Shown one piece after another: positions 583 through 1,431 of a stretch of 29,789 nucleotides of DNA. The stretch's first letter is position 1. Each line of letters starts with the position of its first letter. The notes below the pieces were generated by a model that saw nothing but the letters and a program-made list of their open reading frames with translations, did no database searches and was not told the DNA's origin. Position numbers and translations under genes: made by a program. The stretch comes from a virus. The DNA lies in IMG/VR virus record IMGVR_UViG_3300021351_000075, positions 1-29,789 of that record, one strand, 5' to 3'.

Positions 583-783
583 TTACAACCGCGATCGTAA
601 AAACTCCTCAAACGTCATAACAATGGCCCCTGGTTCGTCATATTTGAACGGTACGATTTTGACCCAAGCTTTATCCTGTGGAGACCAAAGATGCATTTGC
701 ATCAAACGCACAGTAGGTGTTTCTACCAAAGCAGGGCCCGCCCAATCAACCCTGGTCAACTCACCCGTTCCAAAATTGTACAC
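583..783 (-). CDS. Small unidentified protein, or C-terminal domain reached by the -1 frame of the AT-hook gene
   Basis: The last 66 codons before the polymerase gene read as a normal globular protein (VYNFGTGELTRVDW near the start, FEEFLRSRL at the end). They follow directly after the AT-hook gene stop at 789. The GTG at 783 is the first possible start after that stop. A GAGGGGAG purine run lies about 15 bases upstream, which is long for an SD. The frame stays open upstream to an ATG at 1431, inside the AT-hook gene, so this stretch may instead be the C-terminus of a longer acidic protein or of a -1 frameshift product. No family recognised. The coding nature of this segment is fairly secure; its true start is not. 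Confidence 0.55.
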   Translation of the reverse strand: MYNFGTGELTRVDWAGPALVETPTVRLMQMHLWSPQDKAWVKIVPFKYDEPGAIVMTFEEFLRSRL

Positions 784-1431
784 ACAATTTACGGGAGCTT
801 CTCCCCTCGTTGTTTGAACGGCGGGGGGACTTTGTGAAAGCGCTTGCCCTTGCGGATAATCAGCTTCTCTTTCACTTCCCCCATCGTTTCGTCTGCTAGA
901 TTCTCTATCGTCTGAAGATGTTCCTCGATCTTCGGATTCGGATTCGGGTTCTGGTTCTGATTCAAATTCGGGTTCTCCGAACAATCCGTCAAAGTCGCCT
1001 TCTTCGCCTTCTTCGCCTTCTTCGCCTTCTTCGAAGTCTTCTTCGTCGATGTAATCTTCCTCTTCTTCTTCAACGTCCGCTTGTCCTTGATCCCCAGACA
1101 CTCGTTGATCGCGCCCGAGAAGAATCTCACTGCAGTCCAATTGCTCACCCGGCGCGACCCCTCCAACACCTTCCCATTGGTCTTCCTCTTCTGTTTCTTC
1201 ACCGGGCTGGTGCCCGCTATTTCCGTTACCAGAGTGCTGAGCGTTGGATACCGTTGCCCCCGGTACAGATAATAAAACTGCCCCACCTTGATCGTGTGTA
1301 CCGTTCCAGACTTCCGCGGCCATTCCTTTTTCAAGACATTCCCCGGACGAAGCAACGCTATCTTCGGATTCCGCGAACGCTCCCGAAACCATCGGTCGTG
1401 GTCGCGATTCTCGCCCCATTTCCATTTGCAC
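583..1431 (-). other. Alternative-frame acidic ORF overlapping the 3' part of the AT-hook gene
   Basis: This frame, -1 relative to the AT-hook gene, is open for 282 codons. About residues 119-170 are almost pure Asp/Glu/Gly/Ser/Pro (for example DYIDEEDFEEGEEGEEG and EPEPESESED), and it runs into the globular 66-residue end described at 583-783. The part opposite the DUF2924-like domain (about 1107-1352) looks like a shadow, low in hydrophobic core residues. The part from about 1070 down looks more protein-like. No good SD precedes the ATG at 1431. It could be a real overlapping gene, the tail of a frameshifted AT-hook protein, or an accident of the AAGAAGGCG-type repeat composition. Confidence 0.35.

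Follow-up and report, generated by a model that had tools for sequence, protein, structure and literature searches.

A single gene in the replication region of a contractile-tailed phage very probably gives rise to two proteins by programmed -1 ribosomal frameshifting, one of 480 aa with AT-hooks and DUF2924 and one of 549 aa with AT-hooks and a zinc finger. The gene lies in a 29.8-kb piece of phage genome from IMG/VR (29,789 nt; the window, meaning the whole stretch analysed) at 789-2231 on the minus strand, as do all features of the gene and its neighbours given below. It sits between a primase (2381-3412), which adjoins a DnaB-like helicase (3409-5031), and the 3'-5' exonuclease part of a DNA polymerase A (1-573). 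The zero-frame ORF (789-2231) encodes the unshifted product of 480 aa, comprising an N-terminal Cys4 domain, AT-hooks, DUF2924 and a basic tail, while the -1 frame part of the proposed fusion (583-1521) comprises 312 codons and a stop, with the polymerase gene starting 9 nt past that stop. Two conserved frames, a shift site, a covarying hairpin and a lack of start codons for the second frame are present in the sequences; slippage itself and its efficiency we infer from them.

The products would share an N-terminal domain (2007-2228), defined by a home-made profile, in which a Cys4 motif (C-x12-C-x2-C-x5-C) is followed by a possible helix-turn-helix, and an AT-hook/basic linker (1528-2006) matching Pfam AT_hook in five stretches (E 5e-7). 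All four cysteines were invariant in 15 sequences; the domain matched no Pfam or PHROG family, and its cysteine spacing recalls WhiB-type iron-sulphur proteins. In the zero frame the linker leads into a domain (1110-1403) resembling Pfam DUF2924 (PF11149)/phrog_11806, matched in the window at E 2.4e-6 with 28.3 bits against a gathering cut-off of 31.2, and in 17 of 19 family members with E-values down to 3.9e-13. Its predicted fold is confident (AF2 pLDDT 87.8), a fold search of the PDB returned nothing significant and we know of no function for the family. Beyond DUF2924 the zero frame ends in a tail of about 107 residues with a net charge of +17.

Reading in the -1 frame gives a double CxxCxGxG zinc finger (CEVCGGLGRDEHSAPCAKCFGTGRR, 1432-1506), then a linker (796-1431) that overlies DUF2924 and the basic tail and has a net charge of about -33 over its last 105 residues, and finally a 70-aa C-terminal domain (586-795) predicted to form five strands and one helix (AF2 pLDDT 94.6). 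The finger has two of the motifs of which the DnaJ CXXCXGXG zinc region (PF00684) has four and resembles half of that region, scoring 14.6 bits in the window, short of the cut-off of 32.7. Fold searches with the C-terminal domain (PDB, BFVD) gave nothing significant. Sequence matches of A7 to actinohivin and of A11 to 8vd6 covered single short stretches that fail on their own and were disregarded. Homologous C-terminal domains were found in L012, L013, L014, L016, L039, L048 and L051 by a profile that finds its own seeds plus, weakly, L019. The ends of L003, L005, L006, L009, L026 and L117 were unmatched, these loci being linked by the common finger, with visible W-containing ends in some. L019 is a finger-less variant in which the C-terminal domain is kept, with acidic DQEG-like repeats in the -1 frame over a Lys-rich zero frame (L019 8463-9224).

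The preliminary description of this DNA had recognised that both frames are open across 789-1431 (643 nt), the second being the -1 frame of the first, and this is confirmed. It gave the -1 frame as an ORF of 282 aa from a GTG (583-1431); the actual open stretch, with 355 codons between about 1650 and 586, reaches far past the GTG at 1431. Its view that the acidic frame starts to look real only where DUF2924 ends is wrong, since the most conserved part of the -1 frame is the finger directly upstream of that GTG. The contrast of lysine in one frame and glutamate in the other is present as described, but carries no weight on its own: with the frame moved one base back, AAG AAG GCG reads GAA GAA GGC, such that the basic/acidic mirror is automatic. 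The suggestion that the acidic product neutralises the basic one or mimics DNA has been dropped, the charge mirror following from the genetic code.

The same automatic conversion of Lys AAG runs into Glu GAA could make the acidic frame a mere by-product of Lys-rich, C-biased coding. Starts in the -1 frame, moreover, require zero-frame Cys or Trp codons, for which reason the absence of starts reported below was dropped as a statistical argument and is kept as a mechanical fact only. With the zero-frame protein held fixed, however, the -1 frame stayed open over the 240 codons between finger and zero-frame stop in none of 20,000 synonymous recodings, and the zinc-finger pattern arose in 10 of 20,000 codon shuffles and in none of 5,000 recodings. 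The open two-frame region is not due to chance. The finger and C-terminal domain are moreover conserved and the latter folds confidently, which leaves the by-product explanation with next to no credibility.

Relatives were collected via the neighbouring primase and polymerase genes. In type A loci the N-terminal domain and DUF2924 are in one frame and the finger is in the -1 frame (13 independent loci: the window, L003, L005, L006, L009, L012, L013, L014, L026, L039, L048, L051 and L117; L007, near-identical to L006, and L055, which equals L048, were not counted), while in type B loci (L016, L020, L041, L038 and L054) the N-terminal domain shares its frame with the finger and DUF2924 occupies the +1 frame. 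These frames were fixed in the 13 loci of type A and the 5 of type B by home-made profiles for the N-terminal, DUF2924 and C-terminal domains, the E-values of which are inflated for seeds because the profiles were partly built from the same sequences; L041 and L117, yet, match both the N-terminal and DUF2924 profiles without being seeds of either. In type A relatives one frame runs from the Cys4 domain through a linker, either basic or with AT-hooks, into DUF2924, and the -1 frame carries the finger upstream of DUF2924, a linker over it, a C-terminal domain and a stop at the polymerase start. No cultured-phage relatives were found by tblastn, nor any relatives by a direct scan with the 66-residue end of the window; no new close loci emerged from additional scans using polymerase and DUF2924 subsets, and a prophage search in two phyla with genomic matches gave nothing beyond two seeds. 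L117 (CP070713.1, 3245496-3258410) places a replication module of this phage family in a Myxococcales MAG chromosome, as a prophage or mis-assembled phage, and is a possible hint to the host. L013 and L014 have, unlike the window, an AAA ATPase and a large metallopeptidase/VWA-like ORF between primase and AT-hook gene (about 7300-10600).

The conservation of this arrangement bears on the possibility that a sequencing error or gene decay removed one base, leaving the two frames as remnants of one protein. The window is a metagenome contig without read data, yet 12 other contigs share the -1 relation, which excludes the base error that the preliminary description had allowed for. DUF2924 and the finger frame are also read from the same bases, an outcome impossible from an indel, and selection acts on two frames (see below), so that error or decay can be regarded as virtually discounted. 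The preliminary description had also named a case that would speak against a genuine pair of frames, namely relatives with only the zero frame open and the 66-residue protein as an independent gene; this case was not seen, although some relatives (L008, L010, L050, L175, L177, L179 and L181) have DUF2924 only and lack the -1 frame altogether.

Whether the second frame could instead be an independent overlapping gene with its own internal start, and no fusion, depends on where translation of the finger could begin. Internal GTG or ATG codons do occur downstream of the finger, such as the GTG at 1431 in the window, and L117 has one GTG 4 codons ahead of the finger. A start downstream would, however, cut off the conserved finger, and in 12 of the 13 type A loci, L117 being the exception, the finger frame contains no ATG, GTG or TTG from its upstream stop to the first finger cysteine. 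In L013, L006 and L005 this frame is shut 11-17 codons upstream, which brackets the position of the switch. In type B loci one uninterrupted frame joins the finger to the N-terminal domain, and an independent gene would leave the hairpin described below unexplained. An independent acidic gene, one of the options originally offered, is thus unlikely.

The alternative of a -1 frameshift was likewise raised in the preliminary description and is supported, but the switch, sought at 1050-1075, is placed instead at 1521-1527, about 450 nt further upstream. Because of this the fusion is not AT-hook/DUF2924 with an acidic tail, as had been supposed, but the N-terminal domain and AT-hooks joined to the finger, acidic linker and C-terminal domain, with DUF2924 confined to the unshifted product. 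The proposed site is A_AAC_CCT (1521-1527), of which the core C_CCY (NNC_CCY) occurs 6-7 codons ahead of the first finger cysteine in 13 of 13 type A loci, as against a frequency of 1.5% of linker codons for the C_CCY tetranucleotide, although the C at the wobble position is not unique, other finger codons also having fixed wobbles. A full heptamer allowing two tRNAs to re-pair is present in five of these loci (A_AAC_CCT in the window, L005, L009 and L117; G_GGC_CCT in L003), while in the remaining eight the Pro tRNA alone can re-pair, corresponding to the minimal Z_ZZN form of shift site (PMC5009743). Upstream of the site a Shine-Dalgarno-like element (CGGAGGTAC, 1532-1540, with GGAGGT in the window) lies 8 nt ahead of the CCT codon; over the 13 loci the signal peaks about 10 nt before CCY with a mean of -5.6 kcal/mol, a placement equalled by none of 2000 random anchor sets. 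Other candidate sites were rejected, G_GGA_AAA in L006 and G_GGG_GGC in L005 being absent from other loci and the canonical A_AAA_AAG sites at 1548-1554 and 1605-1611 in the window not being conserved, such that the nearer of the two, also about 33 nt from the hairpin, would be at most auxiliary.

Downstream of the site lies a putative stimulatory hairpin (1481-1516), which in the window has 13 bp with arms at 1516-1504 and 1493-1481 and a fold z of -3.6. Folding windows starting 3-6 nt after CCY have a mean z of about -2.4 against dinucleotide shuffles, an excess that has vanished by 12-20 nt after CCY. In an ungapped alignment, 12 of the 13 type A loci have a stem of 11-13 bp about 6 nt after CCY; the exception, L051, has one extra codon and a different, weaker structure, and the hairpins of L003 and L014 are weaker. 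Counting 12 pairs of the stem, 90% of cells pair and 19 cells have changed on both sides, although the hairpin lies inside the finger coding sequence and protein constraint therefore adds to its conservation. The covariation score was 0.446 against 0.175 when shuffled (none of 500 as high) and at most 0.125 for slid partners, and RNAalifold recovers the same stem unaided. The features expected of frameshifting, a conserved slippery core, a 3' structure within a 5-9 nt spacer and a conserved product without its own start (L117 excepted), are thus found together.

A change of frame in the RNA, by transcriptional slippage on A runs as occurs in some bacterial genes and paramyxoviruses, would be favoured by the A-rich runs at 1548-1554 (A_AAA_AAG) and about 1565-1571 within the open -1 stretch of the window. 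Most relatives, however, lack a run of this kind in the stretch that separates the finger from the -1 frame stop, and a 3' hairpin at a 6-nt spacer together with a Shine-Dalgarno-like element is a ribosomal signature, making slippage of the polymerase a more doubtful proposition than even an independent gene.

The type B loci serve as a natural experiment in which the N-terminal frame changes and the hairpin disappears. The finger, out of frame with the N-terminal half in the 13 type A loci, is in frame in these five, and at the homologous place folding energies are -6 to -12 kcal/mol compared with a type A mean of -24.2, the strong hairpin being absent and a weak stem retained in L016. Since type B needs no -1 shift to reach the finger, the hairpin tracks the need for the shift and not the coding of CxxCxGxG. 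The DUF2924 domain of these loci (L016 8376-8837, L020 8160-8558, L041 3007-3405, L038 3014-3400 and L054 2811-3242) could be reached by an internal start or a +1/-2 shift, both candidate routes; in L016 no ATG, GTG or TTG lies ahead of the domain. On the primase tree type B requires 2-3 changes, of which strongly supported branches force one only.

Purifying selection in both frames was evident in the type B pair L020/L041, and was strong in that pair only. These loci are 90% identical and differ at 2, 17 and 22 sites in DUF-frame codon positions 1, 2 and 3, respectively, position 1 being the only one that is non-wobble in both frames (deficit P 1.4e-5). Simulations constrained by DUF2924 only gave 30.0 +/- 2.3 finger-frame changes compared with 22 observed (none of 500 as few) and broke the finger frame in 438 of 500 runs. 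The type A pair L013/L014 showed the same direction weakly (9/200), and no close relative of the window was found for a two-frame comparison of its own.

Taken as programmed frameshifting, most ribosomes presumably remain in the zero frame and make the 480-aa AT-hook/DUF2924 protein, while some would slip one base back at C_CCY (A_AAC_CCT, 1527-1521), aided by the hairpin about 6 nt downstream and the Shine-Dalgarno-like element about 10 nt upstream. The shifted product of 237 + 312 = 549 aa would have its DUF2924 half swapped for the finger, acidic linker and compact C-terminal domain, a replacement half whose coding sequence overlaps DUF2924 or immediately flanks it. Judged from their domains, the two products are expected to bind DNA by means of the AT-hook half they have in common. 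The likeliest role, at perhaps an even chance, is that of a replication-associated DNA-binding pair made in a fixed ratio with different partner-binding ends, which would most likely act alongside the helicase, primase and polymerase encoded nearby; control of transcription is the main alternative. On this reading, a gene from a phage replication region would have two distinct conserved ends written on the same DNA over more than 100 codons, selected by a shift cassette of about 80 nt with an unusual proline shift site re-paired by a single tRNA. Gene callers would probably call the DUF2924 ORF only and miss the finger protein. A literature search covering few subscription journals found no paper on DUF2924 in phage replication or on such an arrangement. 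Elsewhere in the window, a short AAACCA tandem repeat of about 7 copies lies at 8166-8207, and at 23403-24399 (minus strand), immediately ahead of the tail module, an ORF for a tail assembly chaperone (23737-24399) is overlapped by another (23403-23834) in its +1 frame, which is likely a +1 or -2 frameshift of the ordinary G/GT type.

In tailed phages, the known cases of frameshifting mainly concern tail and capsid proteins to which a short extension is added. Influenza PA-X, cardiovirus 2B* and potyvirus P3N-PIPO are trans-frame proteins in which a shared N-terminus is joined to an overprinted C-terminal part, and they differ from the phage gene in belonging to eukaryotic RNA viruses and in using other sites and stimulators. 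The tail chaperone pair G/GT is similar in depending on a phage -1 shift that yields two proteins in a fixed ratio (PMC5009743; PMC10885494), but there the extension is added near the end of G, whereas the overprinting here takes in conserved domains and more than 100 codons of a replication-region gene. Lying between primase and DNA polymerase and matching no PHROGs tail family, the AT-hook/DUF2924 gene is not itself a tail chaperone. In its layout of signals the phage gene is like E. coli dnaX, in which a Shine-Dalgarno-like element about 10 nt 5' precedes a slippery site and then, after a spacer of 5-9 nt, a stem-loop of about 11 bp, and which is likewise a replication-related gene with two isoforms, tau and gamma (PMC5009743). 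At dnaX, however, the protein is cut short by a shift at A_AAA_AAG, while at C_CCY the shift would bring in a new conserved half.

The closest parallel in organisation is the paramyxovirus P/V gene, in which a zinc-binding C-terminal half is swapped by a change of frame, the default mode has switched four times, and the finger or editing has been lost in places (PMC8204654). Both genes have a shared N-terminal half and two C-terminal halves in overlapping frames, one with a zinc-binding Cys cluster, and in both cases lineages have switched the default half and some have lost the finger or the whole device (PMC8204654; PMC5009743). P/V relies on polymerase G insertion in an RNA virus, whereas the phage is a dsDNA virus with apparently ribosomal -1 slippage; no mechanistic kinship exists and no sequence relation is claimed. 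With this proviso we consider it somewhat more likely than not that the gene is a DNA-phage counterpart of P/V, in which two overprinted C-terminal halves are chosen by a -1 slip at C_CCY before a hairpin, the default half has switched more than once across lineages, the hairpin has been lost when the finger is in frame, and the finger or the whole second frame has also been lost.
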